Shown here: one piece after another, positions 14,892 to 55,967 of the stretch
Numbering within the stretch: position 1 is the stretch's first letter
Layout of the letters: the number at the start of each line of letters is the position of its first letter
From: Lutibacter sp.
GTDB taxonomy: Bacteria; Bacteroidota; Bacteroidia; Flavobacteriales; Flavobacteriaceae
Direction of reading: 5' to 3'
DNA: 64,000 nt
Assembly: GCF_013041805.1 (NCBI RefSeq)
Contig: NZ_JABDRI010000018.1
Span: 1 to 64,000, forward strand
Made by a program: the position numbers and the translations under genes
The notes under the pieces: generated by a model
Seen by the model: only the letters and a program-made list of their open reading frames with translations
Databases searched by the model: none
What the model was told of the DNA's origin: nothing

Positions 14892-14921
14892 TTGTTAATC
14901 AAAATAATAATAGTATATTTG
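14892..14921 (+). promoter_or_regulatory. Promoter for rpsO
   Basis: TTG (14892-14894), exactly 19 bases, TATATTTG (14914-14921). Predicted transcription start near 14928, about 57 bases before the ATG. Confidence 0.8.
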
Positions 14922-14928
14922 CGGCCTG

Positions 14929-14948
14929 ATTGCTTACTTTTAAGCAAT
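14929..14948 (+). promoter_or_regulatory. Stem-loop at the predicted 5' end of rpsO mRNA
   Basis: Perfect 8-bp stem ATTGCTTA/TAAGCAAT with loop CTTT. It begins at or next to the predicted start of transcription. There is no T-run, so it is not a terminator. It could protect the 5' end or be part of an S15-binding leader. Confidence 0.5.
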
Positions 14949-14984
14949 TATACATAAAAATTATTAATAAAAATTAATGTTAGC

Positions 14985-15254
14985 ATGTACTTAACAAAAG
15001 AAAAAAAAGCAGAAATTTTTGCTAAACATGGCGAAAATGCAACAAACACAGGTTCAACCGAAGGTCAAATTGCATTATTTACTTTCAGAATTAACCATTT
15101 AACTGAACACTTAAAAAATAATCGTAAAGATTATAATACTGAGCGTTCATTAGTTAAATTAGTAGGTAAAAGAAGAAATTTACTTGACTACCTAATTAAA
15201 AACGATATTGTAAGGTATCGTGAAATTATTAAAGAATTAGGTTTAAGAAAATAA
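14985..15254 (+). CDS. rpsO: 30S ribosomal protein S15
   Basis: S15 binds the central domain of 16S rRNA and often represses its own mRNA. At 89 residues it has the full family length. Signature blocks are GSTEGQIALFTFRINHLTEHL and VGKRRNLLDYL..DIVRYREIIKELGLRK. It precedes pnp, as in many bacteria, but a terminator at 15261-15290 separates the two. Confidence 0.98.
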   Translation: MYLTKEKKAEIFAKHGENATNTGSTEGQIALFTFRINHLTEHLKNNRKDYNTERSLVKLVGKRRNLLDYLIKNDIVRYREIIKELGLRK

Positions 15255-40128: not shown

Positions 40129-41406
40129 TTAAGCTTTATTTTTCTTGGCTACTATTTCATCTAAACACAAATTACTAATACTCCCTTTATGCGTATGAAC
40201 TACATTTTTACCCGGATCAAAGTTACCTTCATTAATGTTTTTCCCAACAATTTTATAGGCGTCTCTAAATGGAACACCACTTTGAACTAATTTATTAACT
40301 TCTTCTACACTAAATAAATACACGTATTTTTCATCCTCAACAATATCCTCTTTCACTTGAATATTTTTTAATGAATACGTTAACATTTCTAAACACGATT
40401 TTAAGGTTGAAAAAGATGGAATTAATCCCTCTTTCAATAACTGTAAATCTCTGTGATAACCACTTGGTAAATTATTTGTAATTAAAGTAAACTCGTAAGG
40501 AAGTGCTTGTAATTTGTTGCATTTACCTCTAATTAATTCAAAAACATCTGGATTTTTTTTGTGAGGCATAATACTTGAACCTGTAGTTAATTCATCAGGG
40601 AATGAAATAAAATTAAAATTCTGACTCATATACAAGCAAATATCCATGCTCATTTTAGATAATGTACTTGCTACTGAGCTAATAGCAAACGCTACTGACT
40701 TCTCTAATTTTCCTCTACCCATTTGAGCAGCCACGGAATTGAACTTTAAGGTTTCAAAATTTAGTTCTTTTGTGGTAAAATCTCTATCAATAGGAAATGA
40801 ACTTCCATAACCAGCCGCCGAACCTAACGGATTTTGATCTGCAACTTTATAGGCTGCTTTTAAAAAATAAATATCGTCAATTAAGGTTTCCGCATACGCT
40901 GAAAACCACAATCCAAATGATGATGGCATTGCTACTTGTAAATGGGTATAACCTGGCAATAAAACAGCTTTATAATGCTCTGCCAATGTAATTAGCAAGT
41001 CAAAAAGCTCGTCAACACCATCTTCAATTTCTTCTAATGCATCTTTTATATACAAATGAACATCCACCAAAACTTGATCGTTTCTTGATCGAGCAGTATG
41101 AATTTTTTTTCCCGCATCTCCCAACTTCTCTGTTAACAAAAATTCAACTTTAGAGTGCACATCTTCAAATGAATCTTCAATAGTGAAATTTCCATTCTTT
41201 ATATCTTCCAAAATTAACTCCAACTCTATTTCTAATTGCCTCAATTCTTTATCCGTTAACAAACCAATACTATACAACATTTTTGCATGAGCAATATTTC
41301 CAACAACATCATATTTTGCCAAAATTAAATCAAGCTCTCTGTCGTTTCCAACAGTAAATAAATCTATCTTTTTATCAGTTGAAAATCCTTTATCCCAAAG
41401 TTTCAT
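40129..41406 (-). CDS. argH: Argininosuccinate lyase
   Basis: Last arginine step: argininosuccinate to arginine and fumarate. The 425-residue fumarase-superfamily protein has SRNDQVLVDVHLYIKD, LPGYTHLQVAMPSSFGLW and the catalytic loop GSSIMPHKKNPDVFELIRGK near residue 280. It is the last gene of the arginine run; a 74-base gap separates it from argE, so a secondary promoter is possible. Confidence 0.96.
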   Translation of the reverse strand: MKLWDKGFSTDKKIDLFTVGNDRELDLILAKYDVVGNIAHAKMLYSIGLLTDKELRQLEIELELILEDIKNGNFTIEDSFEDVHSKVEFLLTEKLGDAGKKIHTARSRNDQVLVDVHLYIKDALEEIEDGVDELFDLLITLAEHYKAVLLPGYTHLQVAMPSSFGLWFSAYAETLIDDIYFLKAAYKVADQNPLGSAAGYGSSFPIDRDFTTKELNFETLKFNSVAAQMGRGKLEKSVAFAISSVASTLSKMSMDICLYMSQNFNFISFPDELTTGSSIMPHKKNPDVFELIRGKCNKLQALPYEFTLITNNLPSGYHRDLQLLKEGLIPSFSTLKSCLEMLTYSLKNIQVKEDIVEDEKYVYLFSVEEVNKLVQSGVPFRDAYKIVGKNINEGNFDPGKNVVHTHKGSISNLCLDEIVAKKNKA

Positions 41407-41480
41407 TTTATAAATTTTTAAGCGTTAAATTGTTTAAGTTTTAAATTATAACCATTACACGATTCAATAATTAAAAAGTT

Positions 41481-42539
41481 TTATATTATTTCATTTAATA
41501 TTTTAATGTACAAATCGATTCCTTCTTTAATTTCTTGAATGTAAATAAATTCATCAGCCGTATGAGAGCGCAAACTTTGTCCTGGCCCTAGTTTTAAAGA
41601 AGGACAACTCAGCACTGCTTGATCAGATAAGGTTGGAGAACCATAGGTTTCTCTTCCTAATTTAATTCCGGCTTCAACAATTGGGTGATTTTTTGGTATG
41701 AAAGATGAATTTAAACGAATTGATCTTGGGCATACTTCAGATGTTACGTTTGAGTTTATGATATCAAAAACTTCTTGATTACTATAAGAGTCCGTAACTC
41801 TCACATCTACAACATATTTACAACTTGCTGGTATAACATTATGCTGATGACCAGCTTCAATTTGCGTAACAGTCATTTTAACTTTCCCTAGTGTTTCAGA
41901 CACCTTTGGAAATTCAAAATTTTGGAACCAATTGATGTCTGCAATAGCATTGTAAATGGCATTATCACCTATTCCATGCGCTGCATGGCCCGCAGTTCCT
42001 CTAGCTTCACAATTCAAAACCATTAAACCTTTTTCGGCAATTGCCAATTGCATTAATGTTGGTTCTCCAACTATGGCAAAATCTATTCGCGGAATAATTT
42101 TTAACATACTATTTAAACCATTTGGACCTGAATTTTCTTCCTCGGCAGACGCCACAATTACAAAATTGTACTTTAAATTTTCTTTATTGTAAAAGTATGT
42201 GAAAGTAGCCAGTAAGGACACCAAACATCCACCCGCATCGTTACTTCCTAATCCGTATAATTTTCCATCAATTACTTCTGGCTTCAAAGGGTCTCTCGTG
42301 TATCCTTTATTTGGTTTTACCGTATCATGATGCGAGTTTAAGAGTATTGTTTTTTTTGAAGTATCAAAATATTTGTTTTTTGCCCAAACATTATGTTTAT
42401 CGCTTTCAAACTTGATATCATGACTAGAGAACCACTGCATAATTAAAAGTGCAGTTTCGTTTTCTTCTCCTGAAAATGATTGTTTAGAAATTAAATTTTT
42501 GAGTAAATCTATGGCTTCTGTAGTTAATATATCTATCAT
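41481..42539 (-). CDS. argE: M20-family deacylase, probable N-acylornithine deacylase (ArgE role)
   Basis: Expected to free the acyl group in arginine synthesis. In this operon the substrate should be N-acyl-citrulline (succinyl or acetyl), because the carbamoyltransferase acts on acyl-ornithine. The 352-residue metallopeptidase-like enzyme has LLNSHHDTVKPNKGY, LYGLGSNDAGGCLVSLLA, and the metal/catalytic ASAEEENSGPNGLNS. I chose the ATG at 42539, which overlaps the argB stop by one base (TAATG). A frame open to 42632 would cover the end of argB and is unlikely. Confidence 0.88.
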   Translation of the reverse strand: MIDILTTEAIDLLKNLISKQSFSGEENETALLIMQWFSSHDIKFESDKHNVWAKNKYFDTSKKTILLNSHHDTVKPNKGYTRDPLKPEVIDGKLYGLGSNDAGGCLVSLLATFTYFYNKENLKYNFVIVASAEEENSGPNGLNSMLKIIPRIDFAIVGEPTLMQLAIAEKGLMVLNCEARGTAGHAAHGIGDNAIYNAIADINWFQNFEFPKVSETLGKVKMTVTQIEAGHQHNVIPASCKYVVDVRVTDSYSNQEVFDIINSNVTSEVCPRSIRLNSSFIPKNHPIVEAGIKLGRETYGSPTLSDQAVLSCPSLKLGPGQSLRSHTADEFIYIQEIKEGIDLYIKILNEII

Positions 42540-43324
42540 TATTCTAGACTTAATGTTGTATGTAATTCGTTTGTTCCTTTTATTAGAGATGCATTTCCTA
42601 TTTTCACTTTTTGAACACCCTTCTGTAAACAATTAAAACAGTTATGAAGTTTTGGAATCATACCTTCGGAAATAATACCTTGTTCAACTAATTTTTCATA
42701 TTTGTTTAAATTAATTTTTGAAATAACAGAGTTTTCATCTTCAATATGCTCTAAAACTCCTTTTAATTCAAACACATAGTTTAATTGAACATCAAATAAA
42801 TTACTCATCGCTATTGCAACTTCTGATGCAATTGTATCTGCATTTGTATTTAATAATTGTCCATTTTTATTATGTGTTATAGCGCAAAAAACAGGAGTAA
42901 CTTTATGCTGTAATAACGCATTGATAAATTCAGAATTCACACTATCAACATCCCCCGCAAATCCATAATCAATACCTTTTACAATTCGTTTATGAGCTAC
43001 AATACAGTTTGCATCGACACCAGACAATCCCAAAGCATTACAGTCATTATGCTGTAAGATTGCTGTGATATTTTTATTTAATAAGCCGGCATACACCATT
43101 GTTACTACTTCTAAATTAGCTTCATCAGTTACTCGTCTTCCATTGACCATTTTCGGTTGTAATCCCATTTCAGAAGCAATTTCTGAAGCTCTTTTTCCTC
43201 CACCGTGAACCAATATTTTAAGCCCTTCAAGTGCTGAAAAATCTTTTAAAAATGAATTTAATTCACTCTCATTATTAATAATATTTCCACCTATTTTAAC
43301 AATATGCAAGGTTTGTTTAGCCAT
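42539..43324 (-). CDS. argB: N-acylglutamate kinase
   Basis: Phosphorylates N-acetyl- or N-succinylglutamate. The 261-residue amino-acid kinase has KIGGNIINNESEL at the N-terminus, HGGGKRASEIASEMG, VNGRRVTDEANLEVV and LNTNADTIASEVAIAM near residue 170. Its ATG overlaps the end of argF' by 8 bases, so the two are coupled. Confidence 0.94.
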   Translation of the reverse strand: MAKQTLHIVKIGGNIINNESELNSFLKDFSALEGLKILVHGGGKRASEIASEMGLQPKMVNGRRVTDEANLEVVTMVYAGLLNKNITAILQHNDCNALGLSGVDANCIVAHKRIVKGIDYGFAGDVDSVNSEFINALLQHKVTPVFCAITHNKNGQLLNTNADTIASEVAIAMSNLFDVQLNYVFELKGVLEHIEDENSVISKINLNKYEKLVEQGIISEGMIPKLHNCFNCLQKGVQKVKIGNASLIKGTNELHTTLSLE

Positions 43325-44267
43325 TATTCTCTAAAATTTTCTTTAATACAATTTGTGCTGAATACGTTCTATTGTTTGCTTGTTCTATCACAATTGAATC
43401 CTCAGAATCTAGTACCTCATCAGTTACAATCACATTTCTACGCACGGGTAAGCAGTGCATAAATTTCGCATTGTTGGTAAATTTCATTTTATCAGCAGTA
43501 ATCATCCAACTAGCATCTGTGTTTAAAACTTGGCCATAATTTTCATAAGAACTCCAATTCTTTACATATATAAAATCAGCATTTTCAAATGCCTTTTCCT
43601 GATTGTATTCAATTGTCGAATTTTTTGTTATTTCAGGATTTAACTCATATCCTTTTGGATGTGTAAGTACAAAATCTGCATCTTGTAATTGCATCATTTC
43701 TATAAATGAATTTGCCACAGCGTGTGGTAGTGCCTTGGGATGTGGTACCCACGACAATACAACCTTAGGTTTTTTAACAGCTTTATATTCTTCAATAGTA
43801 ATTGCATCTGCCAAAGCTTGCAAAGGATGGCCGAGAGAGCTTTCCATATTTATAACTGGAACTCTTGCATATTTTTTGAAATTAGTCAAAATGATTTCCG
43901 TCTCATCTTTTTCTTTATCTGTTAACGAAGCAAAAGCTCTAATTGCTATAATGTCACAATACTGAGAAATTACTTTTGCAGCCTCTTTTACATGCTCTGA
44001 CTTATTTTGACTCATGATAACCCCGTCCTCAAACTCTAGCTCCCAACCCTCACTACCAAAATTCATTACAATTGTATTTAATCCTAAATTTTGTGCAGCT
44101 TTTTGAGTACTTAAACGGGTTCGTAAACTATTATTAAAAAATAACAAGCAAATAGTTTTCCCCTCTCCTAATACTTTAAATTGCAATGGGTTTTTCTTTA
44201 AATCAATAGCTTCTTTTATTGTGCTTTTAAGGTCAACGATATCTGACAAATTGCAAAAATTATTCAT
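43317..44267 (-). CDS. argF': N-acylornithine carbamoyltransferase, probably N-succinylornithine type
   Basis: Carbamoylates acyl-ornithine instead of free ornithine. The 316 residues have the carbamoyl phosphate site FNNSLRTRLSTQKAAQNLG near residue 44, RAFASL, SLGHPLQALADA near residue 145 and HCLPVRRNVIVTDEV near residue 272. FNNSLRTR in place of the STRTR of ordinary ArgF marks the acyl-ornithine group. At the position I align with the residue that sets acetyl versus succinyl choice (Glu in Xanthomonas, Pro in Bacteroides fragilis, as I recall), this protein has Ser90 in NKSEH. That favours succinyl. Overlaps both neighbours by 8 bases. Confidence 0.88.
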   Translation of the reverse strand: MNNFCNLSDIVDLKSTIKEAIDLKKNPLQFKVLGEGKTICLLFFNNSLRTRLSTQKAAQNLGLNTIVMNFGSEGWELEFEDGVIMSQNKSEHVKEAAKVISQYCDIIAIRAFASLTDKEKDETEIILTNFKKYARVPVINMESSLGHPLQALADAITIEEYKAVKKPKVVLSWVPHPKALPHAVANSFIEMMQLQDADFVLTHPKGYELNPEITKNSTIEYNQEKAFENADFIYVKNWSSYENYGQVLNTDASWMITADKMKFTNNAKFMHCLPVRRNVIVTDEVLDSEDSIVIEQANNRTYSAQIVLKKILENNG

Positions 44268-45390
44268 CTAACAAGTTTTTTAAATCATTTATAAACTCAC
44301 TTATTTGTACTGTTGAAATAGTTAATGGAGGTAAAATTCTGAGTAGCTTTTTATTGTTTGAACCTCCTGTAAATATGTGCTTATCAAAAATTAATTTTTT
44401 TCGTAACTCTCCGACTTCAAAATCGAATTCTACACCCAACATTAAGCCTTTTCCTTTTACTTTTTTAACTTGAGGAATTGCTTTAATTTCCTCTAAAAAG
44501 TAGTTGTAAACTTCATTCACATTTACAATTAAATTCTCTTCTTCAATTATTTCTAGCACAGAAATTGCAGCTGCGCATGCTAAATGATTTCCGCCAAAAG
44601 TTGTTCCTAACATTCCTAATTTAGCCTCATATATATCTGAAATTAATACACCTCCAATTGGAAATCCGTTTGCCATTCCTTTGGCAATTGTGATAATATC
44701 AGGCTGAATATGATGATGTTGAAATGCAAAAAATTGTCCGCTTCTACCATATCCTGATTGTATTTCATCTAAAATTAAAGGCACATTCTTTTTATTACAT
44801 ATTGCCTGTACTTCTTGAAAAAACTCAGTAGTACCTTCATCTAAACCTCCAACACCTTGAATTCCCTCAATAATAACAGCAGCAACATCGTTTTTGCCTA
44901 ATTCGTGGATTACCAATTCAATATTATTTAATGGTAAAAAGGTTACTTCTTGCTGTAAATTAATAGGTGCGTTTATATTTTTATTATCCGTTGTAGCTAC
45001 AGCTGCAGATGTTCGTCCGTGAAACGCATTATTAAAAGAAACTATTCTACTTGTACCTGTTATAAATGAAGCTAATTTTAAAGCGTTTTCATTTGCTTCA
45101 GCACCTGAATTACACAAAAACAAGTTGTAATTTTCGCAACCGGATACCTTTCCTAATTTTTGAGCTAATTCTTGTTGCAACGGATTTTGAATTGAGTTAG
45201 AATAGAACCCTATTTTACTTAACTGTTCTGATAATGATTTAACATATTTAGGATGTGTATGACCAATCGAAATTACACCATGACCACCATATAAATCTAA
45301 ATATTTGATATTATTTTTATCCCAAACATAAACTCCTTCAGCTTTTACCGGAGTTACATTATAAAGCGGATATACATTAAATAATTCCAT
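44260..45390 (-). CDS. argD: N-acylornithine aminotransferase
   Basis: PLP-dependent transamination giving N-acylornithine. The 376 residues have LYGGHGVISIGHTHPKYV, FLCNSGAEANENALKLA, ILDEIQSGYGRSGQFFAFQ and the PLP lysine in IITIAKGMANGFPIGG near residue 235. I chose the ATG at 45390 (MELFNVYPLYNVTPVKAEG); the frame is open to 45423 but that would overlap proC. Ordinary members are named acetylornithine aminotransferase. Confidence 0.93.
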   Translation of the reverse strand: MELFNVYPLYNVTPVKAEGVYVWDKNNIKYLDLYGGHGVISIGHTHPKYVKSLSEQLSKIGFYSNSIQNPLQQELAQKLGKVSGCENYNLFLCNSGAEANENALKLASFITGTSRIVSFNNAFHGRTSAAVATTDNKNINAPINLQQEVTFLPLNNIELVIHELGKNDVAAVIIEGIQGVGGLDEGTTEFFQEVQAICNKKNVPLILDEIQSGYGRSGQFFAFQHHHIQPDIITIAKGMANGFPIGGVLISDIYEAKLGMLGTTFGGNHLACAAAISVLEIIEEENLIVNVNEVYNYFLEEIKAIPQVKKVKGKGLMLGVEFDFEVGELRKKLIFDKHIFTGGSNNKKLLRILPPLTISTVQISEFINDLKNLLDE

Positions 45391-45400
45391 AGTATTTTTT

Positions 45401-46195
45401 TTAAATCTGATTGATTTTCTCAAAAGAGGTGACTAAACCTTTTATAATTGATGAGCTTAATCCTTGATGTTCCATTTCATTTAAACCAGAAATTGTACAA
45501 CCGCTTGGCGTGGTAACTTTATCAATTTCTTGTTCTGGATGACTTCCTGATTGGATTAATAAACTAGCGGCTCCCAAACAGGTTTGCATGGCCAATTCCT
45601 GTGCTTCATCAGCATGAAAACCTAGTTGAACAGCTCCTTGAGCTGTGGCGCGAATTAAACGCATCCAAAATGCAATTCCACTTGCGCAAATTACAGTTGC
45701 AGATTGCATTAATTTTTCTTCAATATATAGTGTATTTCCTAAAGAATTAAAAATCGTTTTTGCGAATTCAATATTTTCCTTCCCTTTTTCATTCGCACTA
45801 ATACACGTCATAGATTGCCCTACAGAAATAGCAGTATTTGGCATACTTCTAATAATAGCAATTTCGCCTCCAACAATGGCTTCAATCTCATGAATTTTCC
45901 TGCCAGTTATCACTGAAATTATAGTGTGTCGCTTAGTATCAATTACGGTTTTAACTTCCTCTAAAACAGCAATCAACTGATTGGGTTGAACAGCAAGTAT
46001 AATTACATCTGAGTATTGTATTGCTTCTTTATTATTTGATGAAATTTTGACTTTTGGAAACTTTTCAAATGAACTTAACGAACTTTTATTTCGTTTTGTT
46101 AAATACAAATTATCTAGGGTAAAGTTATCTTGTGATAAAATTCCTTGTGCTATTGAATACCCTAAATTTCCTGTTCCTATTATTGCTATTTTCAT
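45401..46195 (-). CDS. proC: Pyrroline-5-carboxylate reductase inside the arginine operon
   Basis: Final proline step, NAD(P)H-dependent. The 264 residues have the Rossmann start IGTGNLGYSIAQGIL, RSMPNTAISVGQSMTCI near residue 118, and the C-terminal IDKVTTPSGCTISGLNEME signature. It lies 6 bases after argC and 10 before argD, so it is certainly part of the run. proA and proB are not in the window. Confidence 0.94.
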   Translation of the reverse strand: MKIAIIGTGNLGYSIAQGILSQDNFTLDNLYLTKRNKSSLSSFEKFPKVKISSNNKEAIQYSDVIILAVQPNQLIAVLEEVKTVIDTKRHTIISVITGRKIHEIEAIVGGEIAIIRSMPNTAISVGQSMTCISANEKGKENIEFAKTIFNSLGNTLYIEEKLMQSATVICASGIAFWMRLIRATAQGAVQLGFHADEAQELAMQTCLGAASLLIQSGSHPEQEIDKVTTPSGCTISGLNEMEHQGLSSSIIKGLVTSFEKINQI

Positions 46196-46201
46196 ACTAT
46201 T

Positions 46202-47179
46202 TTAAAATGACGTTGCTTTTAATTGTAATCCTTCTGTTTCAGAAAACCCAAACAATAAATTCATATTTTGAATTGCCTGTCCTGAGGCTCCTTTTAATAA
46301 ATTGTCAACAACCGAAGTAATTAACAATTTGTTGTTATACTTTTCTAAATGAATAAAACAATTGTTCGTATTTACTACCTGTTTTAAATGCACAGGTATT
46401 TTTGAAATATATGTAAATGGAGCATCTTTATAAAAGTCTTCAAATAATTGAAAAGCTTCATCAGTACTTTTATCAAAATCTAAATATATAGAAGCAAAAA
46501 TTCCTCTGCTAAAATTTCCTCTATTTGGGATAAATAACAGTTCTTCAGAAAACCCTTTTTGCAATGTCGCTAAACTTTCATGTATTTCGCCTAAATGCTG
46601 ATGCTTAAATGCTTTATATACTGAAAAATTATTATCTCTCCAACTAAAATGGGTTGTTGCGCTAGGTGAAACACCTGCACCTGTTGATCCCGTGGTTGCA
46701 TTTATGTGTATCGAACTCTTTACTAATTTATGTTTAACCAATGGTAATAACCCCAATTGTATAGCTGTAGCAAAACATCCTGGGTTAGCTATATTGGATG
46801 CATTTTTAATTTTATCTTTATGTAGTTCTGGTAGTCCATAAACAAACTCTTTTCCTTGAAAAAAAGCGTCATTTTTCAATCTAAAATCGTTGCTTAAATC
46901 AATAATTTTAGTGGTGGAAGAAAATTTATTCTTTTCCAAAAACCTTTTAGAATTTCCATGACCTAAACATAAAAAAACTAAATCAACATTTGAATTGACA
47001 GTTTTGGTAAATTTTAAATCTAATGAACCTAATAAGTCTTGATGTACATTGTAAATATAATTCCCTGTATTTGAAGTACTGTAAACAAAATCAAGTTCAA
47101 TTTTAGAATGATTTATCACCAATCTAATTAATTCTCCCGCTGTATAACCTGCGCCACCAATTATTCCAACTTTAATCAT
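46202..47179 (-). CDS. argC: N-acyl-gamma-glutamyl-phosphate reductase
   Basis: NADPH-dependent reduction to N-acylglutamate semialdehyde. The 325 residues begin VGIIGGAGYTAGELIRLV, and have YGLPELHKDKI, the catalytic Cys in ANPGCFATAIQLGLLPL near residue 134, and TGSTGAGVSPSATTHFSW. The gap to argG is 2 bases. Confidence 0.96.
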   Translation of the reverse strand: MIKVGIIGGAGYTAGELIRLVINHSKIELDFVYSTSNTGNYIYNVHQDLLGSLDLKFTKTVNSNVDLVFLCLGHGNSKRFLEKNKFSSTTKIIDLSNDFRLKNDAFFQGKEFVYGLPELHKDKIKNASNIANPGCFATAIQLGLLPLVKHKLVKSSIHINATTGSTGAGVSPSATTHFSWRDNNFSVYKAFKHQHLGEIHESLATLQKGFSEELLFIPNRGNFSRGIFASIYLDFDKSTDEAFQLFEDFYKDAPFTYISKIPVHLKQVVNTNNCFIHLEKYNNKLLITSVVDNLLKGASGQAIQNMNLLFGFSETEGLQLKATSF

Positions 47180-47181
47180 AC

Positions 47182-48363
47182 TTATGAGTTTACACTATGA
47201 TAAATTTTGTTTGCTGTTCCTAAAATTTTAATAAATCCTTTTGCATCTTCTGAGGTCCACGCCTTGTTTGTTTCTCCATATTCACCAAATTTAGACTTCA
47301 TTAAATCGTGTTTAGATTCAATACCATTTACACTAAAATGGTAGGGTTTTAGAGTCACATACACTTCCCCTGTCACTGTTTTTTGAGAATCTTCTAAAAA
47401 GGCTTCAATGTTTCTCATTACAGGTTCAAAATATTGGCCGTCGTGCAATAACATTCCATACCAACTCCCTAACTGTTCTTTTAAATTTTGTTGCCATTTA
47501 GACAATACATGTTTTTCTAACGTATGATGCGCCTTGATGGTTACTACCGCTGCTGCAGCTTCAAAACCAACTCTTCCTTTAATTCCAACAATAGTATCCC
47601 CTACATGAATATCTCTCCCAATAGCATATTTTGATGCAATCTCTTCTAACTTTAAAATGGTATTTACTGAAGTGTCAAATTCATCATTCAAACCAATCAA
47701 TTCTCCCATTTTAAAATGAAGTTTAATATCTGTTGGGGTTGTTTTTTCTAATTGACTTGGATAAGCTTCTTCAGGCAGAGCTTGGTGAGAAGTTAATGTT
47801 TCTACCCCTCCAACACTTGTGCCCCAAATTCCTTTATTAATGGAGTACTTTGCTTTCTCCCAAGGATAATCCACACCATTTTCTTTTAAGTACGCTATTT
47901 CTTCTTGTCTAGACAGTTTTAAATCTCTAATTGGTGTAATAATTTCAATTTCAGGCGCCAATGTTTGGAAAATCATATCAAACCTCACCTGATCATTTCC
48001 TGCACCTGTACTTCCGTGTGCAATGTATTTTGCCCCAATTGCTTTTGCGTATTCAACTACTTCAATTGCCTGAAATACACGTTCAGCACTCACCGAAAGC
48101 GGATATGTGTTATTTTTCAATACATTTCCAAAAACCATATACTTAATTGCTTTTGTATAATATTCTTGTAAAATATTTTTATTTACATGAGAAGTAACAC
48201 CCATTTCATAGGCTTTTTGCTCAACAACTTTCAACTCATTAGTTGAAAATCCACCTGTATTTACAAGTGCACTATAAACTTCTAAATTTAATTCGTTCAT
48301 TAAATATTTAACGCAATAGGAAGTATCTAAACCTCCACTATATGCTAGTACTACTTTGTCCAT
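47182..48363 (-). CDS. argG: Argininosuccinate synthase
   Basis: ATP-dependent joining of citrulline and aspartate. The 393 residues begin with the PP-loop LAYSGGLDTSYCVKYL, and have YIAHGSTGAGNDQVRFD near residue 110 and DYPWEKAKYSINKGIWGTS. It follows the GNAT gene by one base. Confidence 0.96.
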   Translation of the reverse strand: MDKVVLAYSGGLDTSYCVKYLMNELNLEVYSALVNTGGFSTNELKVVEQKAYEMGVTSHVNKNILQEYYTKAIKYMVFGNVLKNNTYPLSVSAERVFQAIEVVEYAKAIGAKYIAHGSTGAGNDQVRFDMIFQTLAPEIEIITPIRDLKLSRQEEIAYLKENGVDYPWEKAKYSINKGIWGTSVGGVETLTSHQALPEEAYPSQLEKTTPTDIKLHFKMGELIGLNDEFDTSVNTILKLEEIASKYAIGRDIHVGDTIVGIKGRVGFEAAAAVVTIKAHHTLEKHVLSKWQQNLKEQLGSWYGMLLHDGQYFEPVMRNIEAFLEDSQKTVTGEVYVTLKPYHFSVNGIESKHDLMKSKFGEYGETNKAWTSEDAKGFIKILGTANKIYHSVNS

Positions 48364-48364
48364 T

Positions 48365-48982
48365 TTACTTTTTGTTTTTTTTAAGAAATAATGCTTGCTT
48401 AATATTTTTTAATCTGCTTAATACTTTTGAATTGTATTGATGCGTTTTTATATTTTTTTCATATTTTGGGTCATATAACATACCAGTACACAAACACATT
48501 TTTTTATCTGTTCTCATTAAAACATCATAATTTTTACACGTTTTACAACCATTCCAAAAAGCCTCATCTGTAGTGAGTTCAGAAAAAGTTACTGGTTGAT
48601 AACCTAACTCATAATTAATTTTTAAAACTGCTAAACCCGTTGTGATTCCAAAAATTTTAGCATCTGGATATTTTTCTTTAGAATATTCTAAAATTCTCTT
48701 TTTAATTTTTTTGGCTAACCCTTGATTTCTAAAATTAGGATGTACAATCAACCCTGAGTTTACAACAAACTCTTTGTTATCCCAAGTTTCTATATAGCAA
48801 AACCCTGCAAATTCATCATTGTGAATTGCAATAATGGCATCACCTTTAATTATTTTTTTTGAAACATAGTCAGGAGTTCTTTCTGCAATTCCTGTTCCTC
48901 TCACTTTTGAAGATTCTTTTATGGTTTCACAAATGATTTCTGCATACTTTATATGCAAATTATTAGCTACAACAATTTTCAT
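48365..48982 (-). CDS. GNAT acyltransferase with C-terminal Cys cluster, probable N-acylglutamate synthase
   Basis: Heads the arginine operon, one base from argG, and no argA or argJ is present, so it is the best candidate for the first step (acylation of glutamate). The 205 residues have a GNAT fold with the CoA-binding loop HPNFRNQGLAKKIKK near residues 81-95 and FGITTGLAVLKINYELGYQPV near 111-131. After the fold comes a Cys cluster, CKTC (146-149) and CLC (163-165), of the kind that could bind a metal, then a Lys-rich tail. From memory, a homologue in Bacteroides thetaiotaomicron has been linked genetically to N-succinylglutamate synthesis. Activity here is inferred. Confidence 0.75.
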   Translation of the reverse strand: MKIVVANNLHIKYAEIICETIKESSKVRGTGIAERTPDYVSKKIIKGDAIIAIHNDEFAGFCYIETWDNKEFVVNSGLIVHPNFRNQGLAKKIKKRILEYSKEKYPDAKIFGITTGLAVLKINYELGYQPVTFSELTTDEAFWNGCKTCKNYDVLMRTDKKMCLCTGMLYDPKYEKNIKTHQYNSKVLSRLKNIKQALFLKKNKK

Positions 48983-49024
48983 TGCTTACTTAGGTATTAT
49001 AAAAATTAAATATTGATGTTTTTT

Positions 49025-49051
49025 GAAGAAGAAATCGGACGCACCGTTTTC
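49025..49051 (-). terminator. Candidate attenuator hairpin before the arginine operon
   Basis: On the minus strand GAAAACGG, loop TGCGT, CCGATTTC form an 8-bp stem with one A-A mismatch (49044-49051 with 49031-49038), followed by TTCTTC. The T-run is imperfect, so it is a weak terminator at best. It begins 9 bases after the leader stop. A second small GC stem, GCCC/GGGC at 49065-49077, covers the Arg codons of the leader. Confidence 0.45.
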
Positions 49052-49060
49052 AATAGATAT

Positions 49061-49126
49061 TTAAGCCCGCAAGGGGCGACGAGGAAAAAAGCGTACTACT
49101 ACTATAAGTGAATTCTCGTTTTTCAT
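49061..49126 (-). CDS. Arginine-rich leader peptide of the arginine operon (candidate)
   Basis: A 21-codon ORF with ATG at 49126 and TAA at 49061-49063, lying about 80 bases before the GNAT gene. It begins MKNENSLI and its last 13 residues are VVVRFFPRRPLRA, with Arg at 12, 16, 17 and 20 encoded by CGC, CGT, CGC and CGG. A hairpin follows at once. The segment 49033-49092 is close to 50 percent G+C in an AT-rich chromosome. The layout is that of a transcription attenuator sensing charged tRNA-Arg. I found no convincing promoter box upstream: TACTATTG at 49132-49139 has one mismatch and no TTG partner. The rest of 49127-49242 shows nothing clear. Alternatives are chance, or an unrelated GC-rich repeat. 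Confidence 0.5.
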   Translation of the reverse strand: MKNENSLIVVVRFFPRRPLRA

Positions 49127-49242
49127 TGGTACAATAGTACATAAAATAATTAATACTAGAGCTATTTCATGTAATTTTTAATAAAATCTCAGTTTAAAGT
49201 TAATATTTTTAGTAATTATCGTCAAAATAATCAAAAAACACC

Positions 49243-50505
49243 CTAAATTAAGAATTGAAACAGCTCCGGTTTTTCATTCAAATATTCACCTAAAAAGCCT
49301 TTTTGCTTCATTCTTTCTAACAGAGGTTCAAAATCGTCTTTAGAATCTAATTCAATTCCAACTACCGCTGGCCCTTTATCTCTGTTGTGTTTTTTAGTAT
49401 ATTCAAAATAAGCAATATCATCATTTGGCCCCAACACATCTACCACAAATTCTTTTAGAGCTCCCGCGCGTTGCGGAAATTTGATAATGAAATAGTGCTT
49501 CAATCCTTCATAAAACAATGCACGCTCTTTCATTTCTTCCATTCGAGTAATATCATTATTACCTCCACTTACAACGCAAACAATTGTTTTCCCTTTTAAT
49601 TCATCTTTATAATCTTCAAGAGCGGCAATCGATAATGCTCCTGCCGGTTCTACAACCATTGCATTTTCATTATACACTTTTAAAATTGTTGAACAAATAA
49701 GTCCTTCGCAAATTAAATCTGTACTATATAATAAGTCCTTACAAATATTGAAATTTAATTCTCCTATTCGTTTAACTGCAGCTCCATCTACAAAATTATC
49801 AATCTCACTTAAGGTTGTGTTAACACCTTTCTCTAAAGAATTTGTTAAAGAAGGAGCTCCAACTGGCTCCACACCAATAATCTTTGTAGCTGGACTCAAT
49901 GCATTAAAAACACTTCCAACACCCGATGCTAAGCCACCTCCTCCTACTGGAAGAAATAAAAAATCTATGTGAGATTGACTATCATTTAAAATTTCTAATC
50001 CCACTGTTCCTTGACCTGCAATAACCTCTAGATCATCAAACGGATGCACAAATGTGCTTTTATGCGTATTACAAAAATCTATTGCTGCTTTTTTACTATC
50101 GTCAAAACTATCTCCAAAAAGCTGAATTGAAATAAACTCCCTACCAAACATTTTTACCTGATCAATTTTTTGATGTGGTGTTGTTACTGGCATAAAAATT
50201 GTACCGTGAACTTTTAATTTCTGACAAGCATAAGCAACTCCTTGCGCGTGATTACCGGCACTTGCACAAACAATTCCGTTTTTTAATTCATCTTTTGATA
50301 AGCCTTGAATTTTATTATAAGCCCCCCTAATTTTGTAGGAACGAACTACTTGTAAATCTTCTCTTTTGAAGTAAATTTTAGCTTGATAGCGGTCAGAAAA
50401 ATTTTGCATAAAAACCAAAGGAGTTTTTTCTACAACTCCTTTGATATTATGCTGAGCTTTATATATTTCTTCTAATGAAATGCTATTTTTTATAGTTGTA
50501 CTCAA
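49243..50505 (-). CDS. ilvA: Threonine dehydratase (biosynthetic)
   Basis: Threonine to 2-oxobutanoate, entry to isoleucine. The 420 residues have the PLP lysine in VRSYKIRGAYNKIQGL near residue 57, VCASAGNHAQGVAYACQKL, the PLP-phosphate loop LPVGGGGLASGVGSVF near residue 186 and one ACT-like domain from about 330 on (HYFIIKFPQRAGALKEFVVD). It is shorter than E. coli IlvA (514, two ACT-like subdomains). Last gene of the ilv operon; no clear terminator follows. Confidence 0.93.
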   Translation of the reverse strand: MSTTIKNSISLEEIYKAQHNIKGVVEKTPLVFMQNFSDRYQAKIYFKREDLQVVRSYKIRGAYNKIQGLSKDELKNGIVCASAGNHAQGVAYACQKLKVHGTIFMPVTTPHQKIDQVKMFGREFISIQLFGDSFDDSKKAAIDFCNTHKSTFVHPFDDLEVIAGQGTVGLEILNDSQSHIDFLFLPVGGGGLASGVGSVFNALSPATKIIGVEPVGAPSLTNSLEKGVNTTLSEIDNFVDGAAVKRIGELNFNICKDLLYSTDLICEGLICSTILKVYNENAMVVEPAGALSIAALEDYKDELKGKTIVCVVSGGNNDITRMEEMKERALFYEGLKHYFIIKFPQRAGALKEFVVDVLGPNDDIAYFEYTKKHNRDKGPAVVGIELDSKDDFEPLLERMKQKGFLGEYLNEKPELFQFLI

Positions 50506-54284: not shown

Positions 54285-55967
54285 TTAAAATTTATCCGTT
54301 ACACAACCTTCAGAGGCTGAAGAAACGGTTTTAGCATATTTATATAATATTCCTTTTTTATGTTTTAACTCAGGAGCTTTCCAATTAGCTTTTCTTTTTG
54401 CCAATTCCTCATCAGTTAATTTTACATTTATTGTTTTATTCTCAGCATTAATAACAATTACATCTCCATCTTGTATCAATCCAATTGCACCACCAGATTG
54501 TGCTTCTGGAGTAATATGTCCTACCACAAAACCGTGAGTTCCTCCTGAAAAACGACCATCAGTAATTAATGCTACCGATTTTCCTAAACCTGCACCCATA
54601 ATCATAGATGTTGGCTTTAACATCTCAGGCATTCCAGGACCTCCCTTTGGTCCAACATATCTAATTACTACTACATCACCTCTTGACACTTTTCCTTCTC
54701 CAATACCTTTGTTAGCTTCATCTTCACCGTCAAAAACAACTGCTTTTCCTTCAAATAAGTTTCCTTCTTTCCCACTAATTTTTGCAACTGCGCCTTCCGT
54801 AGCTAGATTACCAAACAATATTTGCAAATTTCCTGAAGATTTCAACGCTTTTTCTGTTGGGTGAATAACTTGTTGATCTTCTTCAAAACTTAGTGCTTCT
54901 ACATTGGCTAAATTTTCAGCCAAAGTTTTACCAGTAACCGTCATACAATCTCCGTGTAAATATCCCTTTTCTAATAAATATTTCATAACAGCTGGAGTTC
55001 CTCCTACACCGTGAACATCTTCCATTAAATATTCTCCACTTGGTTTTAAATCTGCTATTAAAGGAGTTCTGTCACTTACACGCTGAAAATCTTCTAAAGT
55101 AAATTCAATTCCTGCTGCGTGCGCAATTGCTAAATAATGTAGCACTGCATTGGTTGAACCTCCTAACGCATTTACCAAAGCAACGGCATTTTCTAACGAC
55201 TTTTTGGTGATAATATCTAAAGGTTTTAAATCTAGTTCTAATAAATTTTTAATTGCTTCAGCTATCCTTGAACTTTCACTTTCTTTATGTGGATTTTCGG
55301 CTGGAATAGATGAATTGTAAGGTAATGCAAAACCCATAGCCTCTATTGATGAAGCCATTGTATTGGCGGTATACATTCCACCGCAAGCACCTGCTCCAGG
55401 TATTGCATTTTTAATAATTTCTTTATAATCTTCTTCAGATATTGCTCCAGACAATTTTTGACCTAATGCTTCAAAAGCAGATACAATATTTAATTTTTGA
55501 CCTTTATATCTTCCTGAAGCTATGGTACCTCCATAAACCATTAATGAGGGACGGTTTAAACGTAACATTGCCATTATTGCACCAGGCATATTTTTATCAC
55601 ACCCAACAACAGTAACCAACCCATCATAACTTTGAGCGTTCATAACCACTTCAATAGAGTCGGCAATAATATCTCGAGATGGTAATGAATAATTCATCCC
55701 TGAAGTTCCCATTGAAATACCATCACTTACACCAATAGTATTAAAAATTAATCCTACCTGGCTTCTTTTATTAACTTCTTCCTTAATTTGAACTGCCAAA
55801 TTATTAAGGTGCATATTACAAGGGTTTCCATCATAACCTGTACTTGCTATACCTATTTGAGGATTCTTCATATCCTCTTCAGAAAGGCCAACACCATATA
55901 ACATGGCCTGAGATGCAGGCTGGGTAGGATCTTGGGTAACTCTTTTACTGTGTTTATTTAGTTGCAT
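54285..55967 (-). CDS. ilvD: Dihydroxy-acid dehydratase
   Basis: Third common step of Ile/Val synthesis, Fe-S dependent. The 560 residues have the three cluster Cys in [11 protein letters not shown] (near residue 51), [10 protein letters not shown] (near 123) and [17 protein letters not shown] (near 196), plus [16 protein letters not shown]. First structural gene after the leader and terminator described below. The roughly 200 bases between that terminator and the start (55968-56166) show no ORF or further strong hairpin to my reading. Confidence 0.97.

Follow-up and report, generated by a model that had tools for sequence, protein, structure and literature searches.

The arginine synthesis operon in the window (the whole 64,000 nt stretch of Lutibacter DNA that was analysed) is preceded by a short Arg-rich open reading frame and a two-hairpin RNA element. 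We propose a cis-acting arginine sensor that would control the acetyltransferase-arg operon through translation of the Arg-rich leader, and give this whole mechanism a probability of roughly 0.65; control by arginine is predicted from sequence. The leader itself is real, conserved and specific to arginine, and it extends well beyond the window. How arginine synthesis is controlled in bacteria that lack ArgR is an open question, and a testable answer is offered here for a large family, in which an RNA that reads a leader peptide would stand where other bacteria use a repressor. The features, in the order in which they are read, are as follows.

49132-49139, minus strand: -7-like promoter box TACTATTG, which differs from TAnnTTTG at one position and ends 5 nt ahead of the leader ATG (from sequence)
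49061-49126, minus strand: leader ORF of 21 codons, MKNENSLIVVVRFFPRRPLRA and a stop (from sequence and a conserved Arg-rich ORF in relatives)
49028-49088, minus strand: whole two-hairpin element (match to covariance model R2, E 2.3e-4)
49065-49077, minus strand: hairpin h1, GCCC/GGGC with loop CUUGC, overlapping the last Arg-Pro-Leu-Arg-Ala codons (predicted fold and relatives)
49052-49064, minus strand: spacer separating h1 from h2; its counterparts in relatives are U-rich
49031-49051, minus strand: hairpin h2, loop UGCGU (UGNGU in relatives), covarying stem (also in the predicted fold)
48365-48982, minus strand: GNAT acetyltransferase, first gene of the operon (Pfam GNAT models)
40129-48363, minus strand: argG-argC-proC-argD-argF'-argB-argE-argH (NCBIfam best hits)

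The gene order GNAT-argG-argC-proC-argD-argF'-argB-argE-argH, as given by an earlier sequence-only reading, is borne out by NCBIfam for the arg and proC genes and by Pfam for GNAT. The best NCBIfam hits identify argF' as an N-acetylornithine carbamoyltransferase and argE as argE/dapE-type; the argD and argE matches are below the curated cut-offs. The GNAT gene begins 48 nt past h2, and argG and the remaining operon follow. A G+C content near 50% had also been noted here, and we find 48% over 49028-49088 versus 19-27% in neighbouring 100-nt windows.

The Arg-rich leader and its start

The leader ORF runs from an ATG at 49126 to a TAA stop at 49063-49061, with the four CGN Arg codons described before (CGC at 49093-49091, CGT at 49081-49079, CGC at 49078-49076, and CGG at 49069-49067). 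A missing promoter was counted among the doubts about operon control by this leader; the -7-like box now provides a likely one at the leader ATG. In Flavobacterium psychrophilum, the -7 box sits at -12 to -5 (PMC9723704, section 15), and this position applied to TACTATTG predicts a transcription start 1 nt before the AUG. An exact TAnnTTTG ends 4-8 nt ahead of the leader ATG in 33 of the 108 regions having an ATG-initiated Arg ORF, most often at a spacing of exactly 7 nt (18) or 4 nt (8); on the reverse strand, it lies within 12 nt of an ATG in 14 of 932 cases. This placement of boxes suggests that the leader ORF is probably leaderless or near-leaderless. Section 15 of the F. psychrophilum paper describes a lineage without Shine-Dalgarno sequences (PMC9723704), and a near-leaderless ORF in such a lineage bears on how translation of these leaders starts.

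Regions preceding the same acetyltransferase gene were read in two samples, one of 41 genomes and one of 96 further Flavobacteriaceae genomes from 96 genera. The second sample was picked by the acetyltransferase gene and not by the leader, and comprises 96 of the 98 genomes bearing that gene, the remaining two being already included; one locus (L042) was left out before counting because its contig starts inside the gene. With a threshold of at least three Arg among the last 12 codons, a short ORF of this kind is found in 37/41 and 91/96 regions, against 5/41 and 14/96 on the reverse strand and 7% and 9% of shuffles. The conservation upstream of GNAT-argG that the sequence-only reading had proposed to look for in Flavobacteriaceae is seen in all but five of the 96 family regions, which fall below this threshold. 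Raising the threshold to at least four Arg leaves 28/41 and 79/96, against 0/41 and 5/96 on the reverse strand and about 1% of shuffles.

Most of the family leaders share an ending. A CGN-CGY-CC frame occurs in 79/96 family regions and finishes exactly as RRP-stop in 70 of these; the stop is placed further on in the other nine and in the window genus. The proximal leader has an ATG in 55/79 and only GTG or TTG in 24/79. Its N-terminal part is highly variable across the family, and its Arg codons are numerous and vary in position between leaders. Those upstream of CGN-CGY-CC are mostly CGN (AGA and AGG make up 25/182); in 33 genes of the window, by contrast, Arg is most often encoded by AGA (260/443). 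One leader (L033, MTVVFYRRPRRS) contains AGG codons; Arg is thus retained via both codon families, CGN and AGR. Under a loose rule, another Arg-rich ORF (of the type MKTLKNKIRCTIPGLPVRSRRR) lies about 140 nt further upstream in 35/79, and at least three of these 35 (L098, L110, and L119) resemble the tail of the upstream gene.

Some loci depart from this pattern. Most Arg codons are lost and the hairpins kept in four (L008, L010, L013, and L031). The first three, from the same genus, have also lost the leader stop; the frame runs on and overlaps the acetyltransferase start, and both hairpins are kept. At family loci such as L122, L140, and L153, a second, distal Arg-rich ORF with many CGC codons precedes the proximal one and ends in RRR, about 230 nt upstream of the acetyltransferase gene. 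Elsewhere in the class, outside this family, the same gene follows longer Arg leaders (L187, L188, L191, L193, L196-L200, L202, and L205), with family-specific endings such as VRPVFYIRR, RRPYMPRA, VPFFRRR, and similar. These sequences suggest that several lineages of Arg leaders exist in the class.

The two-hairpin element

The stem-loop reported from 49051 is present and spans 49051-49031 (h2). It forms 7/8 pairs with one A-A mismatch and appears in the predicted fold. The smaller hairpin h1, absent from the sequence-only reading, has a 5′ arm built from the last Arg-Pro codons. The 102-nt fold is no better than that of shuffled sequence (z 0.21; 109/200 shuffles equal or better), so the structure is undemonstrable from the window sequence alone and is established by conservation and covariation in relatives.

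In many genera, h1 has the form CGCCC-GUAA-GGGUG, which places the UAA stop within the tetraloop; the loop is GUAA in 36 of the 81 regions (out of 137) that fit the h1 pattern. The 12 nt after h1 in these 81 regions contain 59% U and 6% G, versus a background of 36% U in the last 60 nt. The h2 stem is variable in sequence and its loop is UGNGU; genera other than that of the window usually also have a bulge of 1-3 nt ending in A.

Model R2, for which sequences from 32 genera were used and Lutibacter was left out, has the leader element as its only match in the 64-kb window at E up to 0.1. It matches 90/96 family regions and misses six; 32 regions were used in building, and 58 of the 64 unused ones were matched. 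It also matches 28/33 same-genus loci and 68/80 named loci. No match arises in 72 further sources, of which 71 belong to other families. In the R2 alignment of the 90 family sequences, 96.4% of cells are paired and 9 of 13 element pairs change on both sides. The compensatory changes anticipated for the hairpin are seen in h2, with 90 double-changed cells versus 22.5 ± 3.7 in shuffled and at most 22 in slid versions of this structure-fitted alignment.

An unfitted alignment (A3: 32 of the 96 family rows, selected by eye for a single-A bulge and a GUAA-type loop) has four h2 pairs with double changes and 97.7% of cells paired; three of five covariation measures beat all 500 shuffles, and two do not clearly do so (29/500 and 106/500). 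The picture is similar in A1, which holds 31 of 41 rows from the window genus and two relatives and excludes near-duplicates (L021, L022, L026, and L029) and loci of other architecture (L036-L041). A third alignment of 97 rows (A2) served only for viewing and for an exploratory listing of column pairs. Swapping h2 arms between species, in the 82 of 137 regions that fit the search pattern, weakens pairing (own arms -7.65 versus permuted -5.18 ± 0.17; 0/200), a test that relatedness aids. Some minimum-energy folds pair leader codons with the 5′ arm of h2; as an antiterminator, this pairing is unsupported by the swap test and is not species-specific (100/200 permutations as good).

We reject a mobile or scattered repeat on the distribution of matches to model R1, whose training sequences come almost entirely from the window genus and which does not pick up bulged forms of h2. 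Under strict filters and at E 0.1, R1 matched 176 of 397 family genomes. Its 30 best family matches (three of them same-genus training sequences, window included) all lie upstream of argG, with the acetyltransferase itself detected in 29; among 11 weaker matches, two lie upstream of acetyltransferase-argG and nine elsewhere are chance-like. The GC-rich block might have been found scattered at unrelated genes, and among these 30 best and 11 weaker matches we see no genuine second copy. Rfam has no family that matches the element in the window at gathering score, and at E up to 10, a search of nine loci gives only three unrelated weak matches. The covarying element is thus lacking from Rfam.

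ArgR and the place of the leader

The ArgR domain (PF01316) is absent from the window genome and from 39/39 relatives searched; control genomes, Bacteroides included, are positive. It scores above cut-off in 11 of 247 class genomes, one of them marginal (G232, 26.9 bits). In six genomes with strong ArgR and acetyltransferase matches (G484, G524, G557, G588, G618, and G647), the ArgR domain is encoded on the same strand, 302-356 nt ahead of the acetyltransferase, so argR occupies the place held elsewhere by the leader. ArgR control serves the same operon in these six, with argR just upstream of the acetyltransferase gene, but it acts through a protein repressor that the window genome and the 39 relatives searched lack. 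An Arg-rich ORF (at least three Arg) occurs in one of the five argR-bearing regions read, and on the reverse strand in two of five.

A further 85 class genomes have an acetyltransferase match, and the upstream regions of 69 were read. Among 58 genomes outside the family without ArgR above cut-off, which are not independent since several share a genus, an Arg-rich ORF is found in 39 (at least three Arg) and 17 (at least four); the reverse strand gives 15 and 4, and shuffles 10-15% and 1-3%. The peptide signal beyond Flavobacteriaceae is weaker, though still clear. In this marine Lutibacter and most of the relatives examined, a ribosome that stalls, and not a repressor, is the probable sensor of arginine supply.

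Sensing, output and known systems

Arg codons lie at the end of the leader, beside or inside a hairpin arm, ahead of arginine genes and in genomes without ArgR, a setting that points to sensing of charged tRNA-Arg. We consider it very likely that the ribosome senses Arg codons. The transcript probably starts no more than about 3 nt ahead of the leader AUG. With charged tRNA-Arg plentiful, the ribosome would pass the Arg codons and depart; h1, with the last Arg and Pro codons as its 5′ arm, would then fold before the U-rich spacer, and RNA polymerase would stop. With arginine short, the ribosome would stall at the Arg codons and cover the 5′ arm of h1, and the operon would be transcribed. That the folding of h1 is what halts transcription seems reasonably likely to us.

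The earlier proposal that ribosome stalling at Arg codons controls the operon is supported as regards the leader, which is conserved and accompanied by the absence of ArgR, and unsupported as regards the hairpin at 49051 as terminator. The T-rich tail ascribed to that hairpin is the sequence TTCTTCAAAAAA, which is no U-run. We reject h2 as a terminator on this ground; its loop is also conserved, and the upstream h1 is the better candidate. A scan of 48850-49350 finds no canonical terminator. The window stretch before the first gene contains no intrinsic terminator (hairpin plus U-run), and the relatives show only the U-rich spacer. The same scan is positive at another leader in the window. A Val/Ile-rich ORF of 21 codons (MKKVIVNTISSKVSVIISQVD and a stop; 56296-56231, minus strand) lies upstream of ilvD, which starts at 55967, and behind it is a canonical terminator at 56202-56171 (minus strand) with 12 pairs and a T tail (one found; shuffles mean 0.0). 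This pair resembles the branched-chain attenuators of textbooks and would serve the adjacent ilv operon. Ordinary attenuator anatomy thus exists in the window, and the arg element departs from it.

Ribosome position could have a different effect under the same Arg-codon sensing: it may set the access of Rho or govern a site for an RNase, and h2 would then be a hairpin for processing or stability. The lack of a canonical U-run at both h1 and h2 and the conserved loop and bulge of h2 are consistent with this, and Salmonella speF orf34 is a precedent (PMC6386406); the U-rich, G-poor spacer immediately after h1 argues against it, and we regard such an output as rather unlikely. In speF orf34, Arg codons of a leader ORF likewise sense arginine by ribosome pausing, but polyamine synthesis is controlled, the output uses Rho and RNase G, and the peptide and the bacteria are unrelated (PMC6386406). 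The Staphylococcus aureus rbfL leader peptide also senses Arg; it differs in blocking translation of a biofilm regulator, in having two AGR codons, and in having no arginine operon (PMC13009471).

The leader could also be an arrest peptide, on which free arginine (or ornithine) bound by the ribosome causes stalling at Pro-stop. TnaC, which stalls with tryptophan, likewise ends in Pro-stop, and the RRP-stop ending of 70/79 family frames resembles it. A reading of this kind is hard to square with the stop further on in the window genus and in 9/79 frames, the highly variable N-terminal part, the numerous Arg codons of shifting position, and a Pro codon that doubles as h1 arm, and we give it little credence. 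Even less credible is a DNA-binding regulator that acts on the promoter, with the leader as a by-product of a GC-rich hairpin arm. Among same-genus loci, 14/33 do have a palindrome, TTGTTAANNATTNAACAA, about 190 or 350 nt ahead of the acetyltransferase (for example L003:2303-2320 and L004:1295-1312), and it is a possible operator. Near the window leader it is absent even when up to three mismatches are allowed, it occurs in 1/96 family loci, no ArgR is found in 40/40 genomes, and Arg codons are also present outside h1, in distal leaders, and as AGR.

The conservation of h2 lies outside what stalling and h1 folding account for. We tentatively suggest, as a wider and doubtful reading, that control of the arginine operon by an Arg-reading leader may be of old date in much of Bacteroidia, with leader and argR able to replace each other at one chromosomal site, and that Flavobacteriaceae may have gained h2 as an RNA receptor for a second signal (with a conserved UGNGU loop and a bulged A), often with two near-leaderless Arg peptides in series.

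Classical attenuators, such as those of the Escherichia coli trp and his operons, attenuate transcription through a leader peptide. The arg element resembles them in having a short ORF in which codons for the end product abound, directly upstream of the operon and beside RNA hairpins. Unlike trp and his, it lacks a canonical terminator in the window, and an antiterminator is unsupported; it also differs in the amino acid (arginine), the near-leaderless ORF, the conserved h2, the stop codon within the h1 tetraloop in many members, and often a second Arg ORF upstream. The element would act in the manner of leader-peptide attenuation, but one classical feature is lacking (the terminator) and another unproven (the antiterminator), so we do not file it as a classical attenuator.

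This kind of control is known, since leader-peptide attenuation has been proposed at amino-acid operons of F. psychrophilum, with 5′ elements of pheA and hisG named (PMC9723704, section 19). Our case shares the family and the general idea; the main text of that paper leaves the arginine operon unnamed and mentions arginine once, on cyanophycin. The arginine case, the RNA element, and the exchange with argR were not seen in the literature searched. No leader peptide of an arginine operon in Bacteroidetes is among the literature matches listed, a scope that most subscription papers fall outside; the paper by Lopatovskaya et al. (2010) on attenuation across bacteria, cited in PMC4833913, may contain such a prediction. 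The window also contains a known RNA leader, the S15-Flavobacteria ribosomal protein leader (RF03161), at 14914-14987 on the plus strand (47.0 bits versus a gathering score of 46.5).
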